Positions 22,813 to 64,000 of a stretch of 64,000 bases of DNA are shown here, in pieces. The translations under genes were made by a program, and so were the position numbers. The stretch covers positions 4,803,060 through 4,867,059 of the forward strand of contig OX359247.1 of the NCBI GenBank assembly GCA_947179485.1, written 5' to 3'. The stretch comes from Allacma fusca. Its lineage: Eukaryota; Arthropoda; Collembola; Symphypleona; Sminthuridae. Under the pieces are notes generated by a model. The model did no database searches, was not told where the DNA came from, and saw nothing but the letters and a program-made list of their open reading frames with translations. The number at the start of each line of letters is the position of its first letter. Positions within the stretch are counted from its first letter, which is position 1.

Positions 22813-23040
22813 GTACGAAGGTGCATGCGAGTATCTATACATAGCATGTTCATCGTACCATGACATTATGGGTGTTCATTTATCCCCCACTTTCTCATCA
22901 CTCACATTTTTTCATCACTCACTCTACAAAAATCATTCCTCCCATTCACCGATTCCCAACCACTACACTATATACTGCCATTCTAATTGCATTAAACCTG
23001 CAGGTGGAATATTTGTGAAATTTTAGGACTTTTGAGGTCG

Positions 23041-25690: not shown

Positions 25691-25872
25691 CGACCTCAAA
25701 AGTCCTAAAATTTCACAAATATTCCACCTGCAGGTTTAATGCAATTAGAATGGCAGTATATAGTGTAGTGGTTGGGAATCGGTGAATGGGAGGAATGATT
25801 TTTGTAGAGTGAGTCATGAAAAAATGTGAGTGATGAGAAAGTGGGGGATAAATGAACACCCATCATGACATT

Positions 25873-31569: not shown

Positions 31570-32085
31570 TGTTACATATGTATAAAAATATATGAAATTT
31601 GTGTATGTAAGTACTAAAGGTAAATAATGTACGATCGGTGCAGGGCCGCTCGCTAGCCCAAAAAGAGGCATGAAAGGCAACTCAGGAATGTGTCTATGTT
31701 ACACATGGACCATATGCACTGGATCAGAGTAGAACACGATCGCTAAAGTTACTCTCCAAGTAAGTGCCTGAGTTCCCATTGTAAGTGCATGCAGCTGTTC
31801 AATTCTCCTATGTGGTTGTAGTGAACACTTGGAGAGGAGAATATTGCACAATACCAGGATGCAGTATATATGTATATAATTGAATTAAGATAGTTTTAAG
31901 CATAGAATTAATACACTTTATGAATAACATGAGTGAATCATAGTCATGAGACTACAGGATGATTTCATCTCTAGTTTATGTATATAACATAGTTTGTAAG
32001 GAAATGATGAAATTTATTTCTTCATGACAAAGACTCCACGGAGCATTCCATGTTGCACATTGCAATTGCATATTGCACTATTTAG

Positions 32086-32093
32086 TATAAATA
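32086..32093 (+). promoter_or_regulatory. LTR promoter TATA box (TATAAATA)
   Basis: TATAAATA lies 516 bp into the LTR. An initiator-like TTAGTA at 32111-32116 is about 27 bp downstream. This would place the U3/R border near 32113. Confidence 0.6.
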
Positions 32094-32174
32094 TGGTTGC
32101 ATTTCTGCATTTAGTATGCTAGTTTTAGTCTGAGGTTCAGCCATGCATTATGCTGGATTGAACTCAGAATCTTC

Positions 32175-32188
32175 TAATCGTAAGTATA
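32175..32188 (+). promoter_or_regulatory. Strong splice-donor-like site in the LTR leader
   Basis: AATC followed by GTAAGTATAGG at 32180 is an almost ideal 5' splice site, about 65 nt after the inferred start of transcription. It could form a short leader exon for spliced subgenomic RNAs. Candidate acceptors just before the downstream ORFs are TATCTTTTAG (ending 51114) and AATTATAG (ending 51178). Confidence 0.5.
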
Positions 32189-32372
32189 GGTTAAGGATAG
32201 GAATAGGATAAGCATTAGGATAAATATTCCCATTACCTAGTCTTCATACTAGTAATGGAAGGGTCACTAATGTAAGGTAGATTGTGAAATAACACCACAC
32301 ACACAGAACACACATACTTAATATAAGACCGATATATTAAGGACATTTTATTTACAAATCATATTTACAAGT

Positions 32373-32378
32373 AATAAA
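32373..32378 (+). terminator. Poly(A) signal AATAAA in the LTR
   Basis: AATAAA about 260 nt downstream of the inferred transcription start. In the 3' LTR the same site would lie just outside the window and could direct 3' end formation. Confidence 0.45.
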
Positions 32379-32742
32379 GTATCAGCAAGTATAAAATTAA
32401 TCCTTTTATTATTCATTTCAGTTTTATTACAGCACCATAATATTAGTATAGGATAACTCCGCGCCGAACCTGGGCAACATATTGACTATTTTCCACCGAA
32501 AATAGGAGGTATGTCACATGGTGTTTGCTGCTAATTGGACCGAACCTCATTCTCATTGAGAATTTTTCATCAAAATTCGGGGAAATTCCACCGGAATGGC
32601 CCGCACCGCGGGGAAACTCATACTTTTCACTGAAAAGTTGAGCTTTTGACTCACGATTAGTCACATTTTGGGGGAATTATTATTCATGCACTGCATGTAA
32701 TAATCAGCCAGTCCTATTAGGACGCGGATTTCAAAATTTCAG

Positions 32743-32760
32743 TGGTTCCTGAGGTCAGGA
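32743..32760 (+). other. Candidate tRNA primer-binding site
   Basis: TGGTTCCTGAGGTCAGGA starts with TGG two bases after the proposed LTR end. Its complement fits a tRNA 3' end, with C61, a 7-nt acceptor strand, A73 and CCA. I could not name the tRNA. The site overlaps a perfect 8-bp inverted repeat (GTTCCTGA-GG-TCAGGAAC, 32745-32762), which could be the real reason for its form. Confidence 0.3.
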
Positions 32761-32762
32761 AC

Positions 32763-35700
32763 AAAAATTTAAACTTTCCAACTTTAAATTTTTCAACAAA
32801 GGAGGGGTATATCCGTACTTAAGTAAGTAAAAATAAATTTTGAAATTCAATTTTAACGGGTATTCGTCCTTTGAATATATGTATATATACATTAGACAGA
32901 TTTTGGAAATAATAGGCCTCCGAGAATATTACGTAACCAGATTATTTTGATAAAATTAGACAGGATTTTAATGAGAATTTATAAATACTCCCAAAAATAT
33001 CTTCCAAAATAAATTATTTAACAAGTGCCGTGACTTGGAAGCTCGAGGAACATTAGAGCAGAGTCAGGAGGGATTAAAAGTACAAGCTCTGGAAAAAGAT
33101 TACGGCCACTGGCTGCTCTAGTACAGAAACGCTTGGAAAATTAAATAAAACCACTGGTTTATATAAAATAAAAATAACGTCAATAATTCCTCAAATATAA
33201 ATTAACAAGTGCCGTGACTTGGAAGCTCGAGGAACAGTAGAGCAGAGTCAGAAGGGATTAAAAGTACGGGTGCACAAATTGAGAATACGGCCACTGGCTG
33301 CTCAAAATTCTTGTGTAACTTGGAAAATTAAATTGACCACTGGTCTATAAAATCTTAATGGTTAGCCAATCTGGTCTAATGCATTGGAATCCTTTAAAAA
33401 TTTTTACATGAATAGTCCAAGTGACGAACACTGATGTACATCAAGGTAAGCTTATATATTTTTGAAAATTATTCATAATCTAAGTCTTTAGGCTCGTCTA
33501 TGAGCCAGAGTAGGTTGCATATATGAACCTTCTCACACAAACTCACAAGGCAAATGAAATTTTATGAAATTTCATAAAAATGGCTACTACATGGCTGCCA
33601 CCTTTTTAATGTTAAGAAGCAAATTGGCAGGGACCATCCCCAATGGCGTTCCACTGGAACCATCAAAACTTGTCCCATAAGTACTACTTAGGGAGGTACA
33701 ACGCAACTATAGGGCAGAGAATGCAAGTAGTTCCCACAGGGATACATGCACCTCGAAGCTTCCTCTTAACCGAGGGTTCATCCCATGACAATGTCCCACA
33801 GGGACTACATACACACCATAAAGGACATGGTCCGGTGTAAATGTAACACATGTAAGATCCTATAGTAAGCTATGTATAGTTCCACTGGGACTTACGTACG
33901 CACTCTGGTCCAACAATGGTGGGGACCACCCCTCATTACGTCCCACAGGGACTACTTAACCACACTATAGGCATTGCCTGTGGTAAGTAGACAACTCCGT
34001 AGCAAATACATTGTTACACATACCCATTGGGGTGTAAATGTAGACCTATGCTACAACAATATAGGGGTCATCCATCCACTATGTCCCGAACCCTATGCTT
34101 CCAATTGCATAGTCAACTTCCAGGTTAGATGGTACAAGCACTCAACACATAGACATGGATATTATGTGAACATTAGGTAGGAGCTATCCACCTATTGTAC
34201 CCAAAGGCTACTTATGTGAGTCAATGGATAGGGAGCATATCATCCCATGGTTAATAGGCGCATACAGGGTACTACCCTATGCATATTGCATCTATAGCTA
34301 TGCATTACTAATGAGTCAATACAACTTGATCTAACATTAGGTTCATTAGCAGTCATGATAGTTAGCCATGATACCCGGTGTCTTGATTATACAGGGTAAC
34401 TAATATAATTTTAACTCCAATTATATTTTAAAATAGCTATGTACCTAAAGGATGGCTATTATTTAAATAATTTTTCAAAATTTGCTCCTTAACATTTAAG
34501 TACAATTAACATCCACATACAGGGTGACCCTTATCCATAAGCCTAAGTATTTTCATTTTTAGCACACACCTGACTATGGGCTAGTGCATATTATAGGAAA
34601 TTTGGAAGTATAGAATCTTTTGAGTAAAAATTTCTTCCTGAAATCCGAATACAGGGTGCAGGGCACATCTTCGCACAGAGTCAGGAATATAGAATGATCT
34701 CTCCATTTGGTCAGTATAGGTACAGGGTCAAGGATAGTATCTCCCTATAGTGGTCAGGTGAATACAGGGTCACTCAAAATATTGTTACTTCCAATGTTTC
34801 ACAGCAGAGCATAGCTGGACTGAAGGCAATTCTAGTTGCTAGTAATCTTAACAATCAACTCTGATAAGGGAATCATATAGGCTGATGTTAATACAGGAAC
34901 TATACGGCTTTCAAATAATTCCTAGGGAATACAGAGAGACGTGGGTCTTTTCTTTTCTAGTATAGATTGTTTGGAATACAGCGTACTCAGAGTTTCTTCA
35001 TGATTGGCTCTGACCGTGGTCATATAGGCTAATATGAATATAGAACTATTTCCAGTTATAGGGCATTCTAAGGATATAGATTGAGGAACAATTCTCCTTA
35101 TACAGATGAAATAGGAACTGGAGGTATTAGCTTGTTCTGCTACAACACTTTAAATCTTTTGGTATGTTTCTTAAGCATACTTACTAATTCTTTAAATCTG
35201 TTTTGGTTACCTGTCTATAGGAACCCATAGGTACCTTTAACTTTACAGCAATGGGAGCGTATATATGGAAGCCCCATTAGATACAGTATATCATACTGAG
35301 TTAGTTGAAGGAATTGGATAATTCCGGCATATAAGCATTCAGGGAGAGAATATCCTCAGGAATAGCTTGATGCAAGGCCAAATTGAACTAGACATCGTAC
35401 TGTGGGAACGTGAGTATAGTAAGTGAAGGTGTATCCATTTCTATATAGGCACAGTATATCACAGTGGCGGCTAGTATCACCCTATTGGATTTCCACTGTG
35501 TATAGCGCTTGTACTATGGATAGTCAGAAGCAGCTGTACCAGTAGGCAAAATGACGTAGTTTAAATGTATCGGTGAATAAGTTTTATTTCTTTTTGCCTC
35601 TGAGGCACAGATCACGGGATTCCCTCATATAGGGCCAAAACACAGAATAGAGCTTTCACAACAACTATAAATTCATACTAGTAGTAAGTATGAATGATGA

Positions 35701-37788
35701 GTTATAATTATACAGGGTACTCCCCTGAAAGGAGTTACTGACAGGAGTTCACTTGCGCAAATAATACTGGAGTTTGGATAAGTGAATAACTTAGCCCTGG
35801 AATAACCAGTAGTTCCGGGACTAGAAAATCCTATAGCTTGACGTAAAGCATATAGGCCTGGAATTTAAAATGAAAATTTGGATTTCAGGATAGTTATAAG
35901 GAAAGGAAATTCAACCGCCTATGGTTGAAGGAACTTTCGAAATTTCATATTTCACTCTTCAAAAATTCAGGTGGATCCTGAATGGTTAAAAATTAATTCC
36001 GGAATATTTTCCGAGGTACACTTACTTGCCTACGGACTTGTACTTCAAGTGCCCAAGCAGGTAGTGTTACTAATTGGCGGTAAAAATAAATCATGGAGCC
36101 TTCTTCATTTAGGACATGATTAATAAATTATACATGCTGTACTACCAGTATTGTAAAACAATTGGCGTTTGAAAAATTCTAGGCTTCTGTTAGGAGTATA
36201 TAGAATAAATCTTACTCTGTATACATCTGGTAGAAGCTAACCATTTTTCAAGATTTATTTCTACTCAAGAACTAACACACAGAGCTTAGAGGAGTTTCTA
36301 CTAAAAATATACAGCACACATAGAATACCTTCTAATACCCAAATGAGTGTGTACTTGGATATTATACAGAGCCTCTATAGGTGTCTATTCTTTAGTATAT
36401 AGAATTCCAACTAACGAAGCTTGTAACTTGGGAAAATGTTACAAATGGGCAAAAATAGTGACTTTCGGAGAAAGGATGTATGTATTGACAGGTAGTCTAA
36501 TATAAGTATAATTGGCGGGCGATTCCAAAATTCATGTCAATATATGCATATAGTGCATTTAGTTAAATTAATGACAAATTAGTTAACAATTAGGTTAAAT
36601 AAATAAATAATTAAGGTTTAGTAAGGCAGGTTCCGGTATTGGTAAAGTCCGTCATCGCAGCATTGAGGGCTTGGGTGACACCCATACTAAGCTCGCTTGC
36701 CTGCGATTTCAGATTTTACTAGTCAGCTGCGGGGAATAAACTTGGTTATAGAAAATACTTTAGTATCAATACGTAGTGTGTATAGTTCCCTCACTGGAAT
36801 GTGTGATCTTCAGGAGGCATAGACTGTAGCATTTTGTTGAGATAAAATTAGAAAATTAAGTTAGTTAAAAATTATATTGGAAATATTTCCCTTCTGGACG
36901 TATATGCTCGTCTCTGAAGAGAACTGAAACAGGCGCGAGCATGTACTTTCAGACGGTACAGAATATAACAAATACCAGGAGTTATAGAAGAGTGAATCCC
37001 TCGGAGGGAAGCATGTGATCCCCTCAGGAGTACAGGTCACAGGATAACCGGGTATCTTGGACAAAGATGTGGATTATGACTGGAGAAGGTTGGCATGTGG
37101 TATTAGGAAGATGCCACTCGCCTCCCGTCACGATCCACACTCTAAAAAATTCTACTAGTCACTTAGCGGGAAATGCATATAGGAAGAAAGAAGAAAAAAT
37201 TCATACAAGCCTACGCATACGCTGAAACAGCTTTACAACGTGAGTTTAAAATTGTGAAATAAATTCAAATTGAACTTAGGTTGTAAGGTTGTTAAAAAAA
37301 TAACAATAACACTGCACAACTTTAAGAAGTCCAGTGGAAACAACCGATTTATTTAACTAACTCCCAATGGGAAATACTCTTGATCAGTCTTCATCTACAG
37401 AATTCGAAAACTGGTGATTGTTGCTAAGGGTACCACTTCACCTTTGAAACCTCTGTGACAGACGTATACATGCGACTCTTGTAGTCCCGAGTGACCCGGT
37501 GAAAAATAGAGGGCAGATCATTACGATTGAGACCCGACCTCCGGTAAACCATCTTTAAAAATCAACTGCTCTCTGGTTGTATACCCAACGAATGTCTGGT
37601 TACAGTAAGGGGTGAAGGGGAAAGACTTCGAATAGTAACTCAACCTACTTCGATTATGTTAATATAGACCTATCAAGAGGGAATTTTGATTCAGTATAAT
37701 TTTCAACTTTCACTTGTGAACATCTCCGACTGAATTTCTGTTGAGTTGTACTTGCCTTAAGCTTACACGCTTATAGCTATACTTCACC
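32763..37788 (+). other. Non-coding 5-kb leader of the retroelement
   Basis: No open frame longer than about 68 codons. It contains the 184-bp duplication, clustered CCCACAGGGACTAC-like words (33.7-34.0 kb), six exact copies of ATACAGGGT (34262, 34389, 34517, 34649, 34762, 35710) plus one GTACAGGGT (34720), and many TATAGG words. It could hold packaging, splicing or translation-control signals; none is proven. Confidence 0.7.
33021..33352 (+). repeat. 184-bp tandem duplication in the leader
   Basis: Copy 1 runs 33021-33204 and copy 2 from 33205 to about 33352. Shared phrases are ACAAGTGCCGTGACTTGGAA, GCTCGAGGAACA, TACGGCCACTGGCTGCTC and ACCACTGGT. Copies differ by scattered changes and the second is shorter. 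Confidence 0.9.
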
Positions 37789-40700
37789 ATGCCTAATAAG
37801 AAACAACAACCACCACCACCTGAGCCTAGGCATCTTCGCTCTCGTGGTCCACCACCTGCTCATCAAGATGTAAGGGAGATAGAAAAGGCAAATAGGCTTC
37901 GACTTCGAGAACAATCAGAGTCATCCACCTCTAGCTTTTCTGTCATACCAAGTAACCCTTCTACTGGTGCTTCATCTGAAGCAAGTGTGAGTCCGGTTGA
38001 CAAACCTGACCCAATCACGCAAGATCAACAGGAGAAGGAAGAGACTGCGCCATCATTGACTGAAGGTGAAGGAGAAAGTTCCTTTCACTCGGCTCATAAT
38101 AGTCAAACACTTAGAGATTCCAGTAACACAGCGTATGAAAGCGTCATCTCAGGAGAAGGCGAAAGAGTTATTGAGAATGCCGCAGGAGATGTGATTTTGA
38201 TTGGCCCAGAGGCTGATCCTGAGACGGTAGGATTATTACAACAAACTATCGCACTTGTTAAGGAAGTGAAGGAACGACAGGAAAGTTCGAAAACTATTAT
38301 TAACACTTCTACAGCAGGGTCAAGCAGTAGTAGCGAAGCTCAGATTAGTCAGAGCCAATTAGAATCAAGCCATACTACAGGGTCTAGCAAGGGTTCTATA
38401 CAGGAAATAAAAGAACCTGAGGCAATAAAAACCCATACGTATACCACTGGAGTAGAGCCAGGTGTAGTACCAACCAATCACCCAACTCATACTTCCACAC
38501 CTAGCACTCAGGCTTCCACTCATAGGCAGCTAAGCTTGAGTAATGTGTCTCATATACAGGTGGAAACAATACGTGAAAATATTCCCACACCATCCAATCG
38601 GAGCATGGATGTGGATTATCGTATTCCAAGTACACCCATGTCATATCTTAATCTGCCTCATGGACAGCTGATACAGTCATCTATACAAATGATGATCCGA
38701 ATGGGCATAGATTTTGGTGATTTGAGTAGAAATCGTGTAGGTATAGCTCTAGCCGAACAAATTAGCATCAATAGAACCACTGGCTTTATTGAACTCACTA
38801 GAGCAGGGGAATACACGTATACCCTGGGGCATTTACGCTCTAGCCAACAACGACGTGTATATATTGGCTGGGACATATTTTTCTTCCGAATGCTCGATCG
38901 CATAAATATGCGACAACAAGGCCCGGAGTATTCAGAAGAGAATGCTCAAATAATATGGGAATTGGCCACCAACCTGGCAGCTCAAATACACGAGCACCCC
39001 ATACAAGTACATACGCTCATGACTCTCCTAGAAAGACGAGTATTGACAATACAGTTTACTACAGAGGAACTAGGTAGGCAGCATTTTGTGAGGGACCATA
39101 TGCCATTCTTTGACAATATAGGAATGAGACGTCTCCCACGAGCTATAGCCGCGGGGCCTAGACAAAGGGACACATCACAAATACCTGCTAGAGAGCGAGT
39201 TACAGTACATGAGCAATATAACCCAGAATATATACTCGTACGGCCCGTAGGCAGTATGCCTAGGGGAAGGAGGCTCTTTACTGAAGAGCAAGATGCATAC
39301 ACACAACCTGCTGTTAGACCAGATATGGTACATATGGGAACAAGTCCTGTAACATCTACGCATACGGAGATGGGAACAAGTCCTATAGTATCTACGCATA
39401 CGGATATGGGAACCAATACCACGCCACGACAAATGTCACAAGGGCTATTAACACGTCCTCAGGACTTGTTAACAAGTTTTCAAATGCAAGATATTAGCCC
39501 AAACACATTGGCTTCTCATGTCTCCATTAGAGACTTGCCGCATGTAACTGACGTAGGAACATCACCCCAGGCATCAGCAAGAGACTCTCCGCGTGGAGTG
39601 AATATAGGTACCTCCCCACATGTACATATGAGAAGCCCGCCGCATGTAGTCAATACGGCTACGTCACCGCATGTAGGGTTCGAACAATTTCTCAGAAGAG
39701 AAATGCATACTTCACCTATGAACGGCTTCTCTCAGCCACCTGCTACACGGCACATACACACAGCTACACATGATAGGGAAAATGCCTCAACTTCCCCTAT
39801 GAGTAGATCTTTTACTCCACGTTCTACACGAAATGCTCACTCAGCCACACATAGTAGAGAAAATGTATCAACTTCTCCAATTGGGAGACCGCCCACAATG
39901 AGACACTTTAACACCTCACCACTTGTCATTCCTAGATCAGACATAGGCTTATCTCCAACACATAATAGGCAAGAGACAGGCACCTCACCTATGCATAATG
40001 CTGTCACTCATAATATGGGTACTCAATCAACACCGCCACAGGCAGGAGCAAATATGGGTACTTCAACACTAGGAATTACACGCTTAAACCCCAGACCTGA
40101 TGTGAGAACCTTAGGTACTCAGGTAACACCACCTAGAGAGGGGATGATTACAGGAAGCACCGCCGTGCAAATTAACGTACATACGCAAGGATTAAATCCA
40201 AGCCCCGTGGCGTCCACCTCACGAGGAATGACAGCTCGACCACGGCTAAACTCAACAACTTTGACTTCTCAATTAGGAATCATTATTCCTCAACCAATGG
40301 AATTCCCACCTTTATCGCCAGGCGCCACTGTAAGAGGATATCCCTCACCGGGAGGTAGAATATATGGGCATAGGCCTGTCCATCATCCCGATGGGGAAGT
40401 CATCCAAAATACTGTGGACCAATATCCACAGGAACAGGCTTTGGGAGATTTAATTATGGAGGGCTATGCACCCACCACTAATATTCCAACTATACGATCA
40501 CCACGTGCAGGTAGATACTATCAGATAGGTCATCATATGATTACGGTATACCAAGGTACTAGAGGACAGCTGGTATACTATATACCACCAGAGAGGCGTG
40601 AAGGTGCAAGGCTGGTAAATCTTACAGTAGCAGAATTTCTAAGAAGGACTAGACAGAGAGATGTATCTCGTGTTCCTTCACCACCACCCGATGCTGAGCT

Positions 40701-43700
40701 ACGGCCAGCTCTGCGACCTCTTTCACCTAGGCCTACTTACCTGTCCATATACCGAACAGCTGATGGAGGAGACGTACATATACCTGGAGGGCTGGCTAAT
40801 AGAAGAAATGACCCAATACCTGAAGGAGCTACCTTCCAATATAGACTTGTATGGGGAGAAGTTCCACCAATCCATCACGAGCAGGAGGATGGTCGTTTCC
40901 ATAATATACCACGAAGTAATCATGAAGGTAGTAGTGATAATACTAACCCAAGCCAAACTTCCTCATCTCAGATGGAGTCAGAAGAACCAGAACAATCTGA
41001 AGAGGAAAGTGAAGACACCCCAAGCCAGGAGCCAGATATGTCAAGTATTGGACGAGATGACCAAGAACGGGACCAACCTAGTCCGGATGTAAATCCGCCC
41101 GCACCAAACGAACCAGAGCCTGAATATAATCCAAATCCCAACCGATCCATACATATTATGGGATATATGTCTCCTGGAGGAAGAATATATGGGCACCGAC
41201 CTGTACATGCGTTTGTAGGGGAACCCATACGTTTTCAAAATGATGAATGGATGATGCAAATGGAAAGAGGAAACCAATCAGCACGAGCTTTTGAATCAAC
41301 GTGCCCCATTCCCACCATACAATCACCCACGTCAAGGAGACATTACCAGGAATTTGGAGACCACGAAATAATAGTCTACCAACGTCCGGATGGGACAATA
41401 CATAATGGATTTGTAAGCCCATTATGGAACGCCAACGTAACGGGAGGTAGATTAGTTCGTATAAGAGCAGATGAGGTACTGGGAAGATTAGCTAGAGACG
41501 ATAGGACTCCATTGCCCCTTGCTAACTTAACAGATGTAAATCATATGATACCAGTTAGGCCAAGGTACTCCGTAATTTTTAATACTCCAATGACAGGACT
41601 CATTGAAGTACCAGGGGGCCATTATAATCCTCTTACCAGAGTTCCACAAGGGTCACAGGAAATAGGACGGCGGCCACTACAATATAACATTAATGGTGAA
41701 GTCATTCCGAATTTACCCGTGGCGTGGAACGAGGACGTTCCACCTCGTGTAAGGGAGAGATTTAATATAATGCAAAATTCGGCTGCTTCACAAACTTTTT
41801 TGCAACCAACCCACCCACAAATTAGGGAAAGTAGGGAAAACACAGCAACAGCTACCTCATCAAGGATAGCTGGGACTGTGGAGGAAGCAGGATCCATAAA
41901 TCAACCTAGAGGTCAAAATAGTGAAAATATGACTCAACAAATACCCCGAACACCTACATTCCGTGCGTTAGACGATAATAACAATAATCCACCACCCCCA
42001 GACAGACCAATAGCCAGGCCAACAAGAAGAAATTCGGTAGTAAGAATACCAGTATACTACACGTCATCAGGTCGCATATTAACAACACCACCACCTAACA
42101 ATCGACAGCTACATACGGCATACGTCACTCCTGACCAGCGAGATGACATGCTAGCAAGAAATCAATGTCAAATAGAGGAATCTATAATTATTCAAAGACG
42201 ACATGAGCAGCGACAAGTTAGGGAAGGTGAAAGGCAACGAAGAATGCAAGAATTGAGAAATGATAGAAGCTACTTTAGGATGCGAAGGGATGGTAGGTAT
42301 GTTATTTTTCAAGACCCAATCACAGGTGAGATTTGGAACTATAGACCATCGGTAAGAAATGATTTGAGAAGAAGACATGTGGGAAATGTCGAATTAGGCA
42401 CTCTCATCAGACAGCGAGGGTTCAGAACATGGTATCTACATACATCTGACGAAAGTTCAGAAGAGGAATACAGAGAGGAGGCAAGACCAGCTCGAGTAAC
42501 AGCACGTAGAAGCTCTACCAACGAGCAAGAAAGAGTCAGCGAAGACCCTAGACCTAGTCAAATGGTTACGGTACATCTAAACTTAGCTACACGGCAAGTT
42601 ACTTTTCGAGCACCAAATGTACGATGCTTTCTTACAGCTACTATACCACGAGCAGCATATGAGGAATATAGGAGCCGTCCTGACAACGGTGAAGCACTAA
42701 TACTTCGCATAAGGCAAGGCGACGCTCAACCATATGATACCGATGGGGAAATTTCAGAGACAAGGGCTGACAGATACAGAGCAACCTTGGATGATAATAA
42801 CATGGACAGATACCACACATACATTTATGCATTTGTGGATGAGAACGGCTTCATTAGCCAGAGACCATCAGGTACAATGGTAAGATTCTCACATATGGCA
42901 TTAAGTGCAGCACAAGATTTTCGTCTAAGAAATGATGAAGCTATCTTTGACGAACCACTATATGATGAGAGAGGTGTAAGGTATATTTCATTAGGCACAG
43001 AAATAACAAATTATGAGCCAGGAGAGTTACAATTCCTATCTAGAAATTATATAGGACCAAGTACAGAAGAAATTATACGAAACAAACCAAAAGACCCAGA
43101 TGAGGATGACTCAATGGAAAGTAATGACGAGGAGGAACCCCCCGGTTACAATGTCAACCGATCACCAAGGGCAGGTTTCAGTGGTCACAGGAATGACCCT
43201 GAAGCACCAAACAACCCCCCTCAAAGATGGCGAAACCATCCCATATATAATGATCATCCATCAAATCTCAATAGAAATAACTATGCAAGAAATAACCAAG
43301 GCCCCCGAGGGAACAGAAACCATCCAAGAAGAAATGAGGATGATTTCGAAGCAAGAAATAATGCGCGAAATAATGCAGATGTTAATAATAATTTAAATAG
43401 GGGGGAAAATATTAACCACCTCCCCCGACCACCATCACATTGGGTGTATAATGAATTAAACCCACAAATCCGTGATCAAAGTCATATAAGTCGACTACCA
43501 GGCCAGAGAAGACCAGAAGTAGAAAATCTGTTGAATGAGATACTTCTCACAGGACCAGTCTTGAGACTTAGGAACTTCAACCGTAGACACGGACGGCAAC
43601 GACCACCGCCATACCTTCGAGTAGGAGCAGGAGCACCTCCGGAGGAGCCCGACTCACCATCATCAAGTTCCGAGGAATCGGGAAGTTCAGACGGAAATAA

Positions 43701-51023: not shown

Positions 51024-51186
51024 AAAGAAGAGGAAGATTTTCATTGAAAATCTCATCGCTGACGACCTCAACAGGACAACAGTAAAGCTAAGTAAAAATA
51101 TACGTATCTTTTAGGCACCATTCATAAAAATTAGGGCTAGAAGATATTTCCAAATTTCATAAAAATTCATAATTATAGGAAAGTTC

Positions 51187-51453
51187 ATGAGGGTTGTTAG
51201 CTGTGCCCCTTGTTTAGTTTGCACCACTACCCCCGACAATATTGCATTAGGCCATTCATTAAAAATTTTTAGGAGAGTAACATATTATCTTAGAAAAAAT
51301 AGACTCACGTACGACGGAATTTACGAAATTAAAGAAATTGTTAGTCCCACTCGGTTGGTAATTCAGAAAGTAAGCAAACCCCGTAGAATTCGATTTGTTA
51401 ACATAGTAGCTTATATTAATAATGAGCCAACAACAGTTAGAGGAGTCAACTGA
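51187..51453 (+). CDS. Small ORF resembling a detached integrase GPY/F module (88 aa)
   Basis: After two CxxC-like cysteines the sequence reads YDGIYEIKEIVSPTRLVI and then RFVNIVAYI. This follows the GPY/F pattern (Y-x-G-P-F/Y, I-x-E-I, then a strand and a second short strand), like residues about 1690-1730 of Pol. It lies 163 bp after the pol stop and overlaps the next ORF by 32 nt in another frame. An acceptor-like AATTATAG directly before the ATG could make it the first ORF of a spliced RNA. It may be a decayed duplicate or a small integrase-cofactor-like protein. Expression is unproven. Confidence 0.5.
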   Translation: MRVVSCAPCLVCTTTPDNIALGHSLKIFRRVTYYLRKNRLTYDGIYEIKEIVSPTRLVIQKVSKPRRIRFVNIVAYINNEPTTVRGVN

Positions 51454-54400
51454 AAAGACAGTTGATGTAAATGTGTGGCGACAATATGTACGTCACACAG
51501 ATATTGTGCGTCCTGACGCCAAGATATTGATGGCCAAAGATGGGACGCTAGAAGCAGTACATAGGGTAGATGGTAGGATCCCTAATAGGATGATCATCAA
51601 GACGGGGAGAAGTGAAAGTGCCCCTATGTACTCGGTAAGGATAGGTGCGCTAGGCCTTAAGTCTAGACGCATAGAGACTCTGTCTTTAGAAGAGCTCAAA
51701 GACGAACCTTTCTATTCAGGTTCGAAATTTTTCCCAGAGCATAGAATGCAAATTAAGCAAGAACACCGTGCTCCAGATGAGCTTGTGTTTCTTTTCAAAG
51801 ACGAACAGTGGAGTCCGACTCCAATAGGAGTACAAATTCCATATGCTGATAACCGCAATAGACAGGCAAATGATCCTTGGTTAATGGGACGTTTCAAAGG
51901 CGAAGCCCATGAAAGCACCCAGGGGTATACTGCTAAAGAAAAAGTCTGTCCATTTTTTGCTGACACCGACCTAAGGAGACTTAGGGCCGGTACTACGACC
52001 GATTCTCGGGCAAAAATGTTCCGTACGGGACAACAATTTAAAGTCCGGGAATCTAGTGACGAAGATGAGAGTAACTCACCGTCAAATAAGGCCAAACGGA
52101 GTACGCTCCCTAGGAAAGCAAAGAATCACAGTCCGGAACCAGGTTCCTCTGTGGAGAGAAAGAGGCGAGTATCTTTGTCTCCACCAGACACGTTTAAAAA
52201 ACATAGGACGCATAAGCGCAGGCCAAAAGCAACTAAAGTTAGAGAACTTGTTAGGGAGGAAGAAGCTGAAGCCTCTTCACAAGTGAAAGCTGTATATGGT
52301 CAAGGACCACAGACTGATTCTGATTCCAGTTCAGATATTGAGGCCGTGCATATAGTCGTAAATAAGCATGGGATAGAAAACTTAGCTCCACCTATGGCAG
52401 CTCTCCCAAAAACAGAAGTCATATGCACTTCTGAAGGATGTACTAAACCTCGGTATAAGAGTCTGTCAGTCGTAGGGTTCCAGCCCAAAGACGGCGAGTG
52501 TGAGGAACATATGATGACTCGCATCTCCAATGAAATGGAGCAGGAACAAATTTCCAGAGAACTGGCCAAGCATATCAGCATAATGGACAAGGATAGGAAA
52601 AAACGATTGAAGTTTTTAGATCATTGCTCAGCGGTGGAATTATTAGAAAACTCTCTGTCAGGAATGGTAGAGAGAAATATTCCCACTAAAGAAATAGTTG
52701 CATCTCGCAGAGATAGGCTCTACACACTGCATGAGTTTAGAGAGAAATGGGAACAGTGGAGGGAGGAAGTTAACTTCCAAAAATCATGTCAGGCATTACA
52801 CATAGACCCTGTCTCCCGCCCATTACTAGATGTCCCAGTTTTAGAAATCTTTTTGACTTCTCCTTCGGACATGGTCTCAGAATCTGAGACACTAACTCTA
52901 CATGCCGAAGTAGAGAAAGGCAATCCATGCCAGGCCGAAAGTCCTGAATTATATAAAGCCCTCACGGCACAAATGCCAAATGTCACATATGACCAAAATT
53001 TCCTAGAGGAAATTATGAGTATTGGTGTGGAGCCTGCAGGCCCACCACCAACCCCAGGTCATGACTTAGTAGAAAATTCAAAAATTTTGGAGGAAAATAT
53101 GCTGAAAGGCCCATATAATTCTCTAAAAATTCCCGAAGTGGATTTAGTGGAAATAACAAATTCCCCACCTATGTCTCCCTCAGCGCATATTAGAGGAGGT
53201 GGAGGGAATAGTAGAAGTGGAGTCATCCCAATTATAGGACTCTCACTATTGGTGGGACTTATTGTTATAGGTAACGTCCATGCAGATCCCAATCCACAGG
53301 GATTTTCAAATTCTCAACCCAAACAAAGAGCATTTTGGGAGAGGATCGACGAGAAATACATCAAAGAAAAACAAACTTTTGATGAAACGGCATTTACAGA
53401 GAAACCAGGCACAAAAATAAGTAAGGGCAAGGCTATGGGCATCGGAGGAACAAGTTTCGCTATAGGGACTATAGGATATGAGTTATGGGGAACCATTGTG
53501 AGGCCACCTTGGTACGGTTATAAATCCCAAGCAACTACGTGTACTAACATGTATCAAATAAGCTGGTCATTCATGAAAAGACAATGGTTTACTATGTCTA
53601 GTTTTTACTCCACTCTCGCTATTAATACATGGCAGTATATTTGGAAAAGCAACAGTTATGAGTCAGACCCAGTAGTCAGAAAATTCGAAATTGCTCAGGG
53701 AAAGAATAATTACCCTGTATGGTATAGCCATACATTCTCCCAAACCGCTCAGAAAAATACAAAACAACTGTATACTATTGGGCAAAAGGCTGTCAATAAT
53801 ACAGAGATCAATATCATAGCCGAACAGTGGAATTATATTGTATTACACGAACAGTGGGATATTCTACCCCACGTGATAATTATGCTGTCTGAAAATAGTC
53901 TAAATAATTCAAAGCACGACCAACTCCAATCCTATGTAAACCATTTCGCCATAAATATTATGAAATCCACACGCAGTCTCAAATACTGGATGCACGAAGG
54001 CATGGAACGCCTTGTAACTAACATAAATAGCAAAGTGATAGGTGAAAAAATGGCAGAAACTAGACAGCGAAGAATCATGCTCTTCCGCGAAGAGCTGACG
54101 GCCATTCACTATTTTGTGATGTCGGAACCAGAAGTTCTGACTCAAGGAATGAATGATTTTATCATTCCTAGGGATTCGCTTTTCCAACCAGGAGACTTAG
54201 TATTTCATACAAACGCGATTTTTTTCCCAAAAATTAATCTGACCATTGTAATTTCATTTCCAAGAGTCTTTACGGGATGCTTCACAGAAGAACTAGAAGT
54301 TCAGAACTGGCATGAAAGAATGGAAAGTTATTGTCAGGAAAGTAAAGCACATAATAGTATCCCAATCATTGAGGGCAATGATCACGCCCAGAAGAGGAAG

Positions 54401-56965
54401 GTAAATGAGAGAAAGATTGAGGCTTTTCTAGGTCCAGAGGGCATCTGGAAGCACCCTAAAGAAGATGTAAGCCTATGCGAGAAAGGAAAGATGTTCTTAT
54501 ATGAACTTGACACGTCAGGGCTTTATACTAGTACAGGGGTCCGGCATCAGGGTATCATTCAAACCCTTATGTGGTACATCATAAACTTTTTCACATACAT
54601 AGGCCCGGTCTACACTGCAGATAAGCCTTTAAAAAACGGTAATGATCCGCTGAGAGGTATTAAGACGGAAAATATTGATGAAAATCAGGCGGAAGAAATA
54701 GAAGTCATGCTGCCAAATACAATTGAAATAGCAGAGGAAGCATTGCCAGAAGGCATAAGGGACTCTAGTGGGCCAGATATTCTAATAAATATTGTTGAGG
54801 ATATTCAGGCCGCATCTCATACTGAAATATGGGGCTCTAGCATACCTGCTATACCAAAAGAAGTATTCGAGCAATGGCAGGCAGAGGCTGATAAGAAAAA
54901 TAGAACCTACGCACGTATAAGTCCATTCAGACGCGAAGACAGTAGTAATACTGCACACAGCAGTCAAGATAGGGCTAGAAGTAGGCAGCCTAGAATAACT
55001 CCAAATTCCCTTAGGCAAGAAGTAAACCCTCACACTACAGGACCATTGGCATATCAAGCAGAAGGGTTTCCAACCACCCAGCATATAAACCTTGTAGACG
55101 TGCTATATAAATTACCAGAAGTAGACCCTTTGGAAACATTAGAAGACGCACTAACTTTCGAGGCCATGATTTATGTAAATACAGCAAACTCTACAGATGC
55201 TTTCAGAGGAAATTTAGACTCAAGGGGAGAAACCCCCGAAATGGAAGCTACAATCAGTTGGTCAAGATATAGGGAAGCTAATGGTAGGGAAAGTGAGCTA
55301 TCACTTAGAAATCCTAGGAGAGGTCATCAGTGCTCAGGATGTAAGACAGAACTATCAGAAGACTATTATAAGTACAGGCAATATCCTCATACACTATTTG
55401 AAGGTCTGAGTCAATGTGAATTGACCAGAGAAGAGGAACAGTATATGATTATCTACCACATGTATAAAAACCTAGAAATAATAGAAGAAGTAGCTAAACC
55501 ACCCTCAGCTAGGAAAAAGTCTCCCACACGAAAGATTAGAAGGGAAACTTTTGCGGAAATTGAGAAGGGATTCAAAAACCTGGCTATTCAGTCTGTTAGA
55601 AATAACTTTGATTTAAAAACTAAACAGGCAGAGATTAAGAGGGATCAGGAGGAACAAGTGAGGTATAGGCGATTTCTTCTACAGGAATATGCAAGCCAGC
55701 CTCATTTACTCACTCTAGTAGATCCAAGGGAAAGAATAATAGCCACTGTATACACTACGGAAAAAACCAGAGTACCTCTGATAGATAGGCAATTGGAAGA
55801 TTTAGCCATAAATCTTAGCGTGCCAATAGGAAATTTAGGAGAGGAGGCGCTAAGCATCATTAGAGCCACCCAGAGACAATACAACTGGCGGAATGCTACG
55901 GAGGAGGCACCATGTAGAAGTCATTTAGGTATGCTATACGGACTCACAGGTAGGGAGATTAGGCGCATAGCCCTGCATATGTGGCTCGCTATAGGCTACG
56001 AACCGTCCTACGAAGTACAGGAAAAATGGATTCGTGAGTACTATATCACTAATTCACACCGTAGACGCATCATAAGTGAGTTGTATTTAGCCACTCTAGC
56101 CGCCATACCAACTCACCTATTACCTTTCAAGGAATTTCATGAGCTGGCCAAACAATGGTCAAGCCTAAATAAGGCTGTGCAGGAAATACAAAGGCACAAG
56201 TTAGCTCAAAAAATAGGGCAACCAGGACCTTCTTGGTTATTAGAGGAAAGGAATGAGTTATCTGACTCACACACTATTAATACTCTGCAGTATGTGGAAC
56301 AGAAGATTATGGCTCTGCACAAAGCATGTACTGGTTATGCACCGGAGAGATTGTATATACGCTATGAAGGAACAGTCAGGGAATATATCTCACCAATTAC
56401 CACTAATGAAAACACTGTAGATGAGCTAGGTGTAGCATTGGAACTAGATCGTATGCAGTTCAACAGAATTTATGAAAGGATGAAAAAATCATACAGACAA
56501 GGATATCTCCTACCCAATAAGTTTAAACCTGACTCCGGACAACCAGGAGTGACAAAACTATCGCATGTAAGTAAAATTATTACTCAGCTAGCTGCACCAG
56601 AATGGCAGTCGTTAGTAATTGACTTTGGAGATGGAAGCTATGGGTTTATCAGACTACTGTATGACTTAACTCACCTTTCTGACACTCAAATAGTATTAAG
56701 GGATTTAGAAGAAAGACTATTGGATCCACACTATGAAATTGATCCTGTATGCGCTGGAGGTTCTATCGCCTCATTATTAATCTTGAGAGACGATGAGCCG
56801 ACACGACGAATGATAGCAGCCATAAGGAGAAAATGGATGAAAGTTTTGGCAGAAAGCCCTGTAAGCCAAACAAGACGGGTGGTAATTTCATTCCGTCGCG
56901 AGCTTAACTTTCCATTCCTACAAGGGAAAGCTAAGACAGAGGACTCCGTTTTTGGACCTCAATAG
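51422..56965 (+). CDS. Large unrecognised membrane-spanning protein of the retroelement (1,847 aa)
   Basis: No family recognised. Residues 1-600 are hydrophilic, with a Ser/Asp-rich and Lys/Arg-rich stretch about 200-290 that looks like a nuclear or RNA-binding signal and a cysteine pair in CTSEGC (about 338). A hydrophobic segment about 600-620 (GVIPIIGLSLLVGLIVIG) ends in a signal-peptidase-like VHA-DP. The next ~420 residues have three N-glycosylation sequons (about 791, 829, 938), four Cys and many Trp/Tyr, as an ectodomain would. A second hydrophobic segment lies at about 1044-1062. The C-terminal ~780 residues are helical and charged, with a CSGC motif near 1303. The position after pol is where env lies in errantiviruses and retroviruses, so an envelope-like part embedded in a polyprotein is possible. 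I see no furin-type site plus fusion peptide arrangement that would settle it. Confidence 0.8.
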   Translation: MSQQQLEESTEKTVDVNVWRQYVRHTDIVRPDAKILMAKDGTLEAVHRVDGRIPNRMIIKTGRSESAPMYSVRIGALGLKSRRIETLSLEELKDEPFYSGSKFFPEHRMQIKQEHRAPDELVFLFKDEQWSPTPIGVQIPYADNRNRQANDPWLMGRFKGEAHESTQGYTAKEKVCPFFADTDLRRLRAGTTTDSRAKMFRTGQQFKVRESSDEDESNSPSNKAKRSTLPRKAKNHSPEPGSSVERKRRVSLSPPDTFKKHRTHKRRPKATKVRELVREEEAEASSQVKAVYGQGPQTDSDSSSDIEAVHIVVNKHGIENLAPPMAALPKTEVICTSEGCTKPRYKSLSVVGFQPKDGECEEHMMTRISNEMEQEQISRELAKHISIMDKDRKKRLKFLDHCSAVELLENSLSGMVERNIPTKEIVASRRDRLYTLHEFREKWEQWREEVNFQKSCQALHIDPVSRPLLDVPVLEIFLTSPSDMVSESETLTLHAEVEKGNPCQAESPELYKALTAQMPNVTYDQNFLEEIMSIGVEPAGPPPTPGHDLVENSKILEENMLKGPYNSLKIPEVDLVEITNSPPMSPSAHIRGGGGNSRSGVIPIIGLSLLVGLIVIGNVHADPNPQGFSNSQPKQRAFWERIDEKYIKEKQTFDETAFTEKPGTKISKGKAMGIGGTSFAIGTIGYELWGTIVRPPWYGYKSQATTCTNMYQISWSFMKRQWFTMSSFYSTLAINTWQYIWKSNSYESDPVVRKFEIAQGKNNYPVWYSHTFSQTAQKNTKQLYTIGQKAVNNTEINIIAEQWNYIVLHEQWDILPHVIIMLSENSLNNSKHDQLQSYVNHFAINIMKSTRSLKYWMHEGMERLVTNINSKVIGEKMAETRQRRIMLFREELTAIHYFVMSEPEVLTQGMNDFIIPRDSLFQPGDLVFHTNAIFFPKINLTIVISFPRVFTGCFTEELEVQNWHERMESYCQESKAHNSIPIIEGNDHAQKRKVNERKIEAFLGPEGIWKHPKEDVSLCEKGKMFLYELDTSGLYTSTGVRHQGIIQTLMWYIINFFTYIGPVYTADKPLKNGNDPLRGIKTENIDENQAEEIEVMLPNTIEIAEEALPEGIRDSSGPDILINIVEDIQAASHTEIWGSSIPAIPKEVFEQWQAEADKKNRTYARISPFRREDSSNTAHSSQDRARSRQPRITPNSLRQEVNPHTTGPLAYQAEGFPTTQHINLVDVLYKLPEVDPLETLEDALTFEAMIYVNTANSTDAFRGNLDSRGETPEMEATISWSRYREANGRESELSLRNPRRGHQCSGCKTELSEDYYKYRQYPHTLFEGLSQCELTREEEQYMIIYHMYKNLEIIEEVAKPPSARKKSPTRKIRRETFAEIEKGFKNLAIQSVRNNFDLKTKQAEIKRDQEEQVRYRRFLLQEYASQPHLLTLVDPRERIIATVYTTEKTRVPLIDRQLEDLAINLSVPIGNLGEEALSIIRATQRQYNWRNATEEAPCRSHLGMLYGLTGREIRRIALHMWLAIGYEPSYEVQEKWIREYYITNSHRRRIISELYLATLAAIPTHLLPFKEFHELAKQWSSLNKAVQEIQRHKLAQKIGQPGPSWLLEERNELSDSHTINTLQYVEQKIMALHKACTGYAPERLYIRYEGTVREYISPITTNENTVDELGVALELDRMQFNRIYERMKKSYRQGYLLPNKFKPDSGQPGVTKLSHVSKIITQLAAPEWQSLVIDFGDGSYGFIRLLYDLTHLSDTQIVLRDLEERLLDPHYEIDPVCAGGSIASLLILRDDEPTRRMIAAIRRKWMKVLAESPVSQTRRVVISFRRELNFPFLQGKAKTEDSVFGPQ

Positions 56966-61560: not shown

Positions 61561-61564
61561 TCAG

Positions 61565-61600
61565 TATATAAGGTTAGGGTATGATCTTGGGAATTCAGTT
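61565..61600 (+). promoter_or_regulatory. Internal core promoter (TATATAAGG + TCAGTT initiator) before the first small membrane ORF
   Basis: TATATAAGG at 61565-61573 and an arthropod-type initiator TCAGTT at 61595-61600, with the initiator A 32 bp from the TATA start, are correctly spaced. The next ATG is the small ORF at 61687, about 90 nt downstream, giving a short 5' UTR. Confidence 0.6.
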
Positions 61601-61686
61601 CATTCTGTTACTCCAAGACGCAAACATCAGTTAGAATAACCTACGTAAAAGTTCCCCAAGAAAATTGTGATTGTGAAAAAGACACT

Positions 61687-62193
61687 ATGTCAAAAATTGT
61701 AATCCTGTTAACCATAATGATTGCCTTAAGTGGAACCGAAGCTGGTTGGAAATTCTGGAAAAAAGGATACGAAGCCACGTATAAGGTAGTGTCAAATAAA
61801 CCCGGATATTTTAGCCGATTCGGAACTTTTCTAGTGAGCAAACTGACTCCAACGATTGCCTTAGCCACTACATGGGCAACAATAGACCGCATTATCCATG
61901 GAAAACCCTTGGAACAGGAGGACATAGCAAAAATGGCAGCTGGAGGCAGCGGAGTCACGGTATTAGGACTGGGAATTGCGTATTATTTCCTGAAGAAAAG
62001 GAATACACCACCTGCAGAAACGAATAGTGACAGTGAACCCCTAATCCAACTCCATGATTCCCCTAATCCCACCACAACAGCTACAAAAACGGAAGCCAAA
62101 ACAGCTTTACAGTCACAAATAGACCAACTAGCGGGAATAAAGGTTATTAAGCGTTTAGAGCCACAACCAAAACTTGTAAATACACATTTATAA
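61687..62193 (+). CDS. Small signal-peptide/transmembrane protein (168 aa)
   Basis: Unrecognised. Residues 1-19 form a signal peptide (MSKIVILLTIMIALSGTEA). A Trp/Lys-rich amphipathic segment follows. Residues about 80-98 are a Gly-rich hydrophobic span (GSGVTVLGLGIAYYFL) followed by KKR, a stop-transfer pattern, and then a ~65-residue polar tail. This predicts a single-pass type I membrane protein with about 60 luminal residues. The full open frame, good start and own promoter-like signal upstream argue for real expression. Possible roles (envelope accessory, viroporin-like) are speculation. Confidence 0.7.
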   Translation: MSKIVILLTIMIALSGTEAGWKFWKKGYEATYKVVSNKPGYFSRFGTFLVSKLTPTIALATTWATIDRIIHGKPLEQEDIAKMAAGGSGVTVLGLGIAYYFLKKRNTPPAETNSDSEPLIQLHDSPNPTTTATKTEAKTALQSQIDQLAGIKVIKRLEPQPKLVNTHL

Positions 62194-62491
62194 ATACTAA
62201 CAAACAAAACAAAGTAGAAAACTTAGAAAATTCTATAATTTAAAAAGAAAATATTATTGCATATCAAATTAAAGTGTATAAAGTTTGTAACAATCATTTT
62301 CGAACTTAGGAAGTCTTGAAAAGTTTCAAAAACTGACATTTTTACGGGAACAGCATTTTAAAGTCAAATAGGAATTCCTTTATTATCAAGTACTATTACA
62401 GTAGTTGAAGGCAAACTAAGACCTTTTGTCACTCAGCACTAAATAGCGGCAGCAGGTATACGCGTGCATAGACCAAGTTTCCAGTGTAAAT

Positions 62492-62911
62492 ATGTATATA
62501 ATAATAATTTTCAGTATTTTAAACCTTCTTACACCCATTCAATGTTTTAATCCCGAAACTAAAGTCAACTTAGAAGAATGGTGGGATAAATATACGAAGG
62601 GGTTCAGAAATTATTTTACTGGCTGGACTCAAGAAGAGTTAGAGCAAGAGCGACAAAGGCGACGAGAAGGTCGACAAATGATGGAGACAAGTCTATGGCT
62701 GCTTAAGGTGACAGGGATAACTATTGTCATATTACTAGTCTTGATACGTTTATGTAGGAATTATTGCTCAGTATCAAAAGCAAGAAAAGTTATCTGTTGC
62801 AACTTTATTTGTTGGACAATAACTAGGTTCTGTAAAAATCAGGGAAAGGAACTTAAGAGAATGAATAAGGACGAAAATGAGGAAATTATTATAATAATGG
62901 AAAATCCATGA
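62492..62911 (+). CDS. Second small signal-peptide/transmembrane protein (139 aa)
   Basis: Unrecognised. Signal peptide at residues 1-18 (MYIIIIFSILNLLTPIQC), a Trp-rich acidic segment, a very charged helix (EELEQERQRRREGRQMM, about 48-64), then a transmembrane span about 68-86 (LWLLKVTGITIVILLVLIRL). The Cys-rich juxtamembrane stretch (about 88-112) could be palmitoylated, and the tail is acidic. Layout parallels the preceding ORF: signal peptide, short ectodomain, one span, cytosolic tail. It may share the upstream transcript, since I see no well-spaced promoter of its own. Confidence 0.7.
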   Translation: MYIIIIFSILNLLTPIQCFNPETKVNLEEWWDKYTKGFRNYFTGWTQEELEQERQRRREGRQMMETSLWLLKVTGITIVILLVLIRLCRNYCSVSKARKVICCNFICWTITRFCKNQGKELKRMNKDENEEIIIIMENP

Positions 62912-63271
62912 GAGGATAAGACAAGAGAAAGAGAGACTTATAAATGTATATACACGTATTAAAATTAATGATTACATATTTGTTTGAAGCATATTACTAT
63001 ACCATAGCTATAAGAATTATAATGATTAATAAGATTCAAGATTGTAATAAATACAAAAGTGCACGATCCACCACATTATATTGTCAATTGAACCCTTCCA
63101 TCCCAAGTTGACAATACCCACAACAGCGCTATATTGTACCTAAAAGTGCTACAGTTATAATATTATGTAAAAATAATTATAAGCACACAGAAACATTGGA
63201 AAATTCCACTCATTTATTACAAATAACTGTAAAACACAAATTCCATGAAGTGTTCCGAGGACGGACCAAAC
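62912..63271 (+). other. 3' non-coding segment before the polypurine tract
   Basis: AT-rich sequence between the last ORF and the 3' LTR. No further feature seen. Confidence 0.5.
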
Positions 63272-63283
63272 GAAGAAGAGGAA
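63272..63283 (+). other. Polypurine tract (GAAGAAGAGGAA)
   Basis: Twelve purines directly abut the 3' LTR start (TGTTAC). This is the position and composition needed for plus-strand DNA priming during reverse transcription. Confidence 0.85.
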
Positions 63284-64000
63284 TGTTACATATGTATAAA
63301 AATATATGAAATTTGTGTATGTAAGTACTAAAGGTAAATAATGTACGATCGGTGCAGGGCCGCTCGCTAGCCCAAAAAGAGGCATGAAAGGCAACTCAGG
63401 AATGTGTCTATGTTACACATGGACCATATGCACTGGATCAGAGTAGAACACGATCGCTAAAGTTACTCTCCAAGTAAGTGCCTGAGTTCCCATTGTAAGT
63501 GCATGCAGCTGTTCAATTCTCCTATGTGGTTGTAGTGAACACTTGGAGAGGAGAATATTGCACAATACCAGGATGCAGTATATATGTATATAATTGAATT
63601 AAGATAGTTTTAAGCATAGAATTAATACACTTTATGAATAACATGAGTGAATCATAGTCATGAGACTACAGGATGATTTCATCTCTAGTTTATGTATATA
63701 ACATAGTTTGTAAGGAAATGATGAAATTTATTTCTTCATGACAAAGACTCCACGGAGCATTCCATGTTGCACATTGCAATTGCATATTGCACTATTTAGT
63801 ATAAATATGGTTGCATTTCTGCATTTAGTATGCTAGTTTTAGTCTGAGGTTCAGCCATGCATTATGCTGGATTGAACTCAGAATCTTCTAATCGTAAGTA
63901 TAGGTTAAGGATAGGAATAGGATAAGCATTAGGATAAATATTCCCATTACCTAGTCTTCATACTAGTAATGGAAGGGTCACTAATGTAAGGTAGATTGTG
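63284..64000 (+). repeat. 3' LTR, cut by the window edge
   Basis: The 717 bp to the window end match 31570-32286 with no mismatch or gap that I could see. It includes the TATA box, initiator-like site and splice-donor-like GTAAGTATAGG (63894). Confidence 0.97.

Follow-up and report, generated by a model that had tools for sequence, protein, structure and literature searches.

Evidence for a recently inserted giant Ty3/gypsy-type LTR retroelement with intact coding regions in the springtail Allacma fusca

The errantiviruses of insects (gypsy/mdg4-like elements) are about 7-9 kb long and have gag, pol, and a third open reading frame (ORF), an arthropod host, a 4-bp target duplication, and a -1 frameshift; Ogre elements of plants carry an extra ORF upstream of gag. 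According to a review, Ogre and the planarian Burro are the known giant long terminal repeat (LTR) elements of the Ty3/gypsy group (PMC6431247). Here we analyze a stretch of 64,000 nucleotides of the Allacma fusca genome (the window; G000:C10:4803060-4867059), which very probably contains a giant LTR retroelement of the Ty3/gypsy type, 32,663 bp long, that inserted recently and has intact coding regions; this confidence covers the element and its retrotransposition, not the envelope role considered below. Coordinates are window positions unless prefixed, and the genome searched comprises 392.7 Mb in 91 contigs (C1, C8, C10, and so on). The element lies at C10:4834629-4867291; its right end, past the edge of the window, was added from the flanking genome.

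The springtail element shares with errantiviruses the succession of gag, pol, and a third ORF, the arthropod host, the 4-bp duplication, and the -1 frameshift arrangement, but errantiviruses are far smaller, and no Env homology was found for the springtail ORF3 in Pfam or PDB. Where Ogre has its extra ORF, the springtail element has a 5.3-kb leader (32519..37776, + strand) without a + strand open stretch above 74 aa. Ogre is likewise a giant Ty3/gypsy LTR element with extra ORFs, but it owes much of its size to LTRs of 1.9-6.5 kb, and its internal region measures 11-13 kb (PMC6431247), against 949 bp and 30,765 bp (30.8 kb) here. Burro is closer in scale: like the springtail element it exceeds 30 kb in total, combines a Ty3/gypsy pol with much extra coding sequence and a suspected env-like region, and occurs as several families within one genome (PMC6431247). 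However, the internal region of Burro reaches up to 25 kb, smaller than that of the springtail element, its host is a flatworm rather than a hexapod, and its gag, env-like region, and pol form one giant ORF (PMC6431247), whereas the springtail element has three ORFs in three frames: Gag ends ORF1, Pol is in the -1 phase, and both are followed by a separate ORF3 of 1,851 aa and a pair of small genes that resemble membrane-protein genes. As set against their descriptions, the architecture of the springtail element differs from both Burro and Ogre.

The element is bounded by two LTRs of 949 bp (TGTTAC...GTCACA), the left one at 31570..32518 and the first 717 bp of the right one at 63284..64000 (both + strand). 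Their starts are 31,714 bp apart, all right-LTR bases inside the window match the left LTR (717/717), and with the flanking genome added the complete copies show no difference; the same repeat was also recovered by an unguided repeat search of the window. Comparison of the flanks revealed a 4-bp target-site duplication, ATTG (31566..31569 on the left; 64233-64236, just outside the window, on the right), and the TG..CA LTR ends together with a 4-bp duplication agree with Ty3/gypsy elements (Metaviridae). The polypurine tract GAAGAAGAGGAA (63272..63283, + strand) directly adjoins the right LTR, and a candidate primer-binding site, TGGTGTTT (32519..32526, + strand), is complementary to the 3' end, with its CCA tail, of a tRNA-like sequence, which we take to be that of tRNA-Val. 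An earlier note on this stretch had described an intact, very recently inserted LTR retroelement of at least 32.4 kb with this LTR spacing, no difference over 717 bp, a polypurine tract at the LTR edge, all catalytic residues, and every long ORF open; our analysis bears it out in each respect, the residues by eye in the translation (DSG, YLDD, HHCC, and DDE) and the recent insertion by the identical LTRs, the 4-bp duplication, two empty sites, and three uninterrupted long ORFs, but the target duplication that it predicted, AATTG, was one base too long.

The empty sites were found by joining 300 bp of the left flank to 300 bp of the right flank, with one copy of the target-site duplication, as a query. 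The joined flanks occur unbroken (600/600 positions at 99%) at C12:51150973-51151572 and C1:49191334-49191933; the search gave five matches in total, the other three being the two flanks of the element itself and one partial copy. Judged by sequence, the C12 and C1 matches are paralogous empty sites and the element is an insertion at C10. The left LTR cuts a host repeat with a frame that appears transposase-like by eye (29714..31681, - strand; 525 and 129 aa, with one stop between), for which a Pfam profile search gave no match.

Related elements form three or more families in the genome: A/A', which includes the window element and measures 30-33 kb (38 kb in one copy); B, with elements of 32 and 36 kb; and C, with elements of about 25 kb. 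From 40 candidates, a search with the LTR gave 42 matches; these include four LTR pairs (A) that are 97-100% identical over the 717-bp query and two (A') that are 84% identical over the full LTR. The LTR spacings are 31,714 (window), 31,800, 37,097, and 31,782 bp in A, and 29,476 and 31,633 bp in A'; the six elements have the 4-bp duplications ATTG, CAAG, GAAG, ATAC, GTAG, and TACC, and 0, 0, 0, 0, 0, and 5 substitutions within pairs (the last plus 2 gap columns). The three further A elements share internal ORFs with the window copy at 97-99%. All three long ORFs are stop-free in the window copy and in the copy at C1:3.6M; in each of the remaining A and A' copies, at least one of these ORFs is disrupted by stops, frame breaks, insertions, or deletions. 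In family B, the two tested pairs (spacings 35.2 and 31.2 kb) differ at 3 of 1,129 LTR positions with the duplication ATTT (C1:43.2M), and by one difference and one gap with the duplication GAAG (C8:55.2M). Single LTRs occur as well, and four of the six examined are solo LTRs with 4-bp duplications (C8:59.1M, C1:1.83M, C1:0.46M, and C10:61.2M).

Family C has at least 19 LTR pairs: the best 40 of 102 LTR candidates were grouped manually into 19 pairs and 2 singles, 16 of these pairs having spacings of 24.0-24.4 kb and the others 23.3, 33.7, and 18.0 kb. Its Pol shares 72% identity with that of the window over protease-RT-RNase H (RT, reverse transcriptase) and about 51% over the integrase part, with frames of 2,251-2,252 aa in at least 14 copies, one of which has a TAG inside the aligned integrase stretch; another relative, with a frame of 2,420 aa, lies at C8:44.4M. 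The best 25 of 3,152 candidates were scored in the genome search for Pol, so the Pol copy counts are lower bounds. ORF3 gave 35 genome matches, grouped manually into 16 places: 11 have a Pol match, three more have an element LTR or ORF1 adjoining, and at two neither Pol (among those best 25 candidates) nor LTR or ORF1 was seen. The earlier note had proposed a search for other copies, and had allowed that the region might be a misassembly or its ORFs host genes present elsewhere without the LTRs. The search yielded these families, and neither objection holds: 14 of the 16 ORF3 places are accompanied by Pol, LTR, or ORF1, and in every one of the eight A, A', and B pairs tested the two LTRs are nearly identical and the element has its own 4-bp duplication; because the further A and A' copies carry such duplications, chance or misassembly does not account for the element.

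Two other arrangements were seen among these families. Four family-B-like LTR copies follow one another at steps of about 10.04 kb (G000:C1:2696994-2728137; at 2696994, 2707031, 2717072, and 2727114), with more copies up to C1:3.00M, possibly a tandem array built on an LTR element. One family C element is flanked by 100% identical stretches of at least 6.5 kb (G000:C9:25446362-25452917 and 25478145-25484700), which reflect either a duplication in tandem or an assembly that placed the two haplotypes one after the other.

ORF2 (45300..51023, + strand) encodes a Pol of 1907 aa in which Pfam and PDB matches delimit protease, RT, RNase H, about 560 aa without assignment, an H2C2 zinc domain, an integrase core, and a C-terminal domain. 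The order of the Pfam matches fits Ty3/gypsy (protease 83-176, RT 432-592, RNase H 665-792, and integrase 1387-1735); the RT, RNase H, and integrase zinc-domain profiles scored above their cut-offs, and RVP (18.6 bits, cut-off 20.7) and rve (26.6 bits, cut-off 32.6) below theirs. The best PDB match is the Ty3 Gag-Pol entry 7q5b (356.6 bits, E 2.3e-105); further matches are 4ol8 (255.2 bits), 8r0s (152.5 bits), and 7ksf (115.8 bits), human immunodeficiency virus entries score about 30 bits, and the integrase of prototype foamy virus matches the ORF2 integrase at E 4.9e-16. By these PDB matches the RT is nearest to Ty3/gypsy, and we class the element as Ty3/gypsy-type. None of the 55 Pol homologues found is close (the top ten are 32-35% identical over 22-26% of the query). 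A tree of 38 RTs, consisting of the window and 37 of the 55 homologues (14 were dropped as too short and 4 had no RT match) and built without Burro, Ogre, or errantivirus references, gave no supported sister for the window RT; the insect-derived RTs in it (bee, ant, and beetle) are not its sisters, the beetle sequence being the most similar at 38%. No relatives were found in viral contigs. A short frame between ORF2 and ORF3 (at about 51270-51440) resembles, by eye, a second integrase C-terminal (SH3-like) module.

ORF1 (37777..45342, + strand; first ATG at 37789) is 2521 aa long and consists of an N-terminal extension of about 2,100 aa, a capsid-like region recognized by eye, and, at its C-terminus, one CCHC zinc knuckle (45217..45267, + strand; Pfam). 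A module of about 270 aa is tandemly duplicated in it (aa 855-1129 and about 1130-1410; 40339..42006, + strand), the two copies aligning with a score of 230, or 157 without the first 16 residues, against a mean of 43-44 (standard deviation 6-7) for shuffles. The extension gave two Pfam matches, both at chance level (E 0.15 and 0.17). In the leader, a repeat search found a 184-bp tandem duplication (33018-33353).

Close to the end of ORF1 is a -1 frameshift signal (45309..45337, + strand): the heptamer GGGAAAC at 45309, in the ORF1 phase G-GGA-AAC, is followed after 7 nt by a 5-bp G/C hairpin, GGGGG-CAGCA-CCCCC, with ORF2 in the -1 frame. GGGAAAC is a known retroviral slippery heptamer. Heptamer and hairpin are present in all four copies examined: the window copy, those at C1:3.6M and C8:64.1M (A'), in which the signal is unchanged, and the family B copy at C1:43.2M, which differs by one loop base, with diverged adjacent bases. 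Pol might be made instead by termination and reinitiation at the ATG at 45318, an explanation that we ranked second once the GGGAAAC signal had been found.

ORF3 (51410..56965, + strand; ATG at 51422), 1851 aa long with no known domain, follows ORF2 after 386 bp. Its layout comprises a hydrophobic segment, signal-anchor-like by hydropathy (aa 605-623; 53222..53278, + strand), a furin-type motif, RQRR, about 260 aa further on (aa 885-888; 54062..54073, + strand), and after a further 160 aa a second, weaker hydrophobic segment with a borderline value of 1.27 (aa 1049-1067; 54554..54610, + strand). ORF3 aligns lengthwise across families A, B (57% identity; the B piece stops before its frame break), and C (28%); the signal-anchor-like segment is also present in B and C, the second segment is hydrophobic in both, and at the alignment position of the motif B has RQRR and C has RTKR. 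Since R-x-K/R-R recurs at other places in ORF1 and ORF3, the motif by itself says little. Further downstream (both + strand) are o4 (61687..62193; 168 aa, 66% identical to B), which begins with a signal-peptide-like segment and has another, weaker hydrophobic one, and o5 (62492..62911; 139 aa, 58% identical to B), with a signal-peptide-like start and a transmembrane-like segment, all by hydropathy; family C has, by the same measure, one 250-aa frame with a signal-peptide-like start and a further hydrophobic segment. No ORF3 homologue was found at E ≤ 0.01 among the best 7,984 candidates by word sharing, and the ORF1 extension and ORF3 match nothing known in the searches made, which for protein homologues covered ORF3 and Pol. 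The layout of ORF3 with o4 and o5 resembles that of an envelope protein with accessory membrane proteins, and we give an envelope function about even chances.

Comparison of the copies suggests that these proteins are maintained. The ratio of nonsynonymous to synonymous divergence (dN/dS) for ORF1 is 0.092 between the window and the C1:3.6M copy and 0.095 against A', where the N-terminal extension alone gives 0.087 and the capsid-knuckle part 0.134; for ORF3 it is 0.074 (C1:3.6M), 0.058 (C1:52.9M), and 0.091 (A', open piece only). Between the window and family B, dN is 0.33 for ORF1 and 0.35 for ORF3, and dS is 2.0 or saturated. Five further A and A' copies encode an o5 that is 97-100% identical, with dN smaller than dS. 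Strong purifying selection evidently acts on the ORF1 extension and ORF3 (dN/dS 0.06-0.09), and because dN/dS is low and dN below dS, the uncharacterized proteins look needed by the element.

The LTRs are identical within the pair in all four A elements and in one of the two A' elements, although the A LTRs differ by 2-6% from the window LTR. Given this divergence, the zero-difference LTR pairs of all four A elements mean that several source lineages inserted recently, recency being judged here from LTR identity. The divergence between the window and the C1:3.6M copy changes abruptly, from 1.0-1.6% in four 500-bp blocks (49,910-51,909) to 6.8-7.6% in the next two, inside ORF3; such steps suggest template switching between co-packaged RNAs, and gene conversion would give a similar picture. 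Between A and A' LTRs (L002 versus L026 and L028), divergence is 28% over the first 300 bp and 14% over the following 300 bp, against 0.7-6.4% in the later LTR blocks and adjoining internal sequence; from these block differences, the promoter part of the LTR seems to evolve or to be exchanged faster.

Our literature search, with most subscription papers, bioRxiv, and supplements outside it, turned up no paper describing giant LTR elements from springtails. The words "repeat" and "transpos" do not occur in the accessible text of the Allacma genome paper, which mentions no giant elements (PMC10427803); nor are any mentioned in the accessible parts of the genome papers on Folsomia (PMC5490193), Holacanthella (Gypsy 27,612 copies, 2.0% of the genome; PMC5644144), and Orchesella dallaii (Gypsy/DIRS1 0.83%; PMC12693562). 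Existing springtail repeat annotations may already hold fragments of such elements.

We propose that transcription from the LTR gives a genomic RNA of about 31-32 kb, from which ORF1 would yield a Gag with its 2,100-aa N-terminal extension, and ribosomes slipping by -1 at GGGAAAC would produce Gag-Pol. Protease, RT/RNase H, and integrase would work as in other Ty3/gypsy elements, with a tRNA (the candidate tRNA-Val) and the polypurine tract priming the two DNA strands and integrase inserting the copy with a 4-bp duplication. ORF3, o4, and o5 would be expressed from further, probably spliced RNAs; their products would be membrane-associated, possibly furin-cut, and most likely serve particle envelopment or spread. 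The sequence itself shows the LTRs, the target-site duplications, the empty sites, the open ORFs, a frameshift-type signal, selection, and several recent copies; expression, frameshifting itself, particle formation, and the envelope role are what we infer. More tentatively, the families could be a springtail lineage of giant endogenous retroviruses, with an RNA above 30 kb packaged by an oversized Gag, ORF3 as a new type of glycoprotein, o4 and o5 as accessory proteins, and spread between cells or individuals.

Several results count against this account. The Ty3-type capsid is putative, assigned by eye and from one knuckle; Pfam searches of whole ORFs and pieces listed no gag domain for ORF1, and a single-sequence AlphaFold model of the capsid region was unusable (predicted local distance difference test, pLDDT, 46.7). 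Complementarity at the primer site extends over just 8 nt, and the two tRNA patterns gave 31 matches against 25 with a reversed control and 31 against 104 in the control, the second turning up one tRNA-Val-like 3' end at five places; because the matches hardly exceed, or fall below, the controls, the primer tRNA is a candidate only. For ORF3 there was no Pfam match beyond chance level (whole ORF and pieces) and no convincing PDB match (two at E 1.2 in one search, and none in another), and a single-sequence model of aa 590-1111 was unusable (pLDDT 29.9), so that the case for an envelope role is one of layout.

In a strong alternative, which we place slightly below an even chance, it is a giant but non-infectious retrotransposon whose ORF3, o4, and o5 act inside the cell (in RNA condensation, at membrane-bound assembly sites, or in suppression of host defence) and not as an envelope. 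Neither Pfam nor PDB gave a fusion or glycoprotein domain for ORF3, no obvious fusion peptide starts after RQRR by eye, the second hydrophobic segment is borderline, and the roughly 600 aa before and 780 aa after the hydrophobic segments are unlike a usual Env; however, the furin-type motif and both hydrophobic segments, the signal-anchor-like one and the C-terminal one, are found again in B and C at 57% and 28% identity, and A and B have two small proteins with signal-peptide-like starts, where C has one such frame. A relationship to the planarian Burro elements, for example through horizontal acquisition, would agree with the similar total size, the Ty3/gypsy pol, and the extra genes and env-like region of Burro, but the single Burro ORF, of 4,873 aa, contains BIR, BCL2-like, and MATH motifs (PMC6431247). 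The springtail element encodes Gag and Pol in two ORFs, in -1 phase to each other, with ORF3 after Pol, and no BIR, BCL2-like, or MATH-TRAF motif is listed for ORF1-ORF3 by Pfam (pieces to E 10, with HMMER filters dropping most above 0.1; whole ORFs to 0.1), in a comparison that sets Pfam/HMMER against the HHpred-type searches behind the Burro motifs (PMC6431247). Judged by arrangement and domains, kinship with Burro is unlikely. Least probable by far is a misassembly or chance nesting that put unrelated host sequence between the LTRs of an element of ordinary size: single HiFi reads, usually below 32 kb in length, need not span the element, but the duplications of all eight tested pairs, the two empty sites, and the internal ORFs shared by the three further A elements speak against it.

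The left part of the window carries ordinary animal genes, among them a complete, intact FAF2 (UBXD8) host gene of seven exons at 15158-17257 (minus strand). Its product is 61% identical to that of Orchesella cincta (99% covered) and 57% to that of Folsomia candida (100% covered), and, among the best 120 of 550 matches, at most 49% to named proteins of other animals at coverage of at least 90%; outside these limits are Nephila pilipes (57% over 69%) and the top match overall, a Joint Genome Institute (JGI) sequence (92% over 72%). On these values a planarian host was rejected in favor of a springtail. Two further host-gene exons were recognized by eye, one of a G-protein-coupled receptor (2532-2861) and one dihydrolipoamide-succinyltransferase-like (8094-8435). 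Two 167-bp tandem-repeat arrays in opposite orientation (23039-23682 and 24555-25692) lie inside an inverted repeat of 823 nt (97% complementarity), and an 18-bp tandem repeat of 21 copies (18923-19303) is open in several frames. According to the accessible text of the genome paper, chromosome 3 carries a heterozygous inversion that spans roughly 5 to 45 Mb (PMC10427803); the window (C10 4.80-4.87 Mb) is near its edge.

A recently inserted giant retroelement of this kind matters in two ways. The ORF1 extension and ORF3 together amount to nearly 4,000 codons of uncharacterized, selected protein, which may hold a new solution to the packaging of giant RNAs or a new type of envelope. A hexapod genome that holds three or more families of elements of 25-36 kb, several having identical LTRs and open frames, adds a further lineage in which the limits on such elements can be tested.

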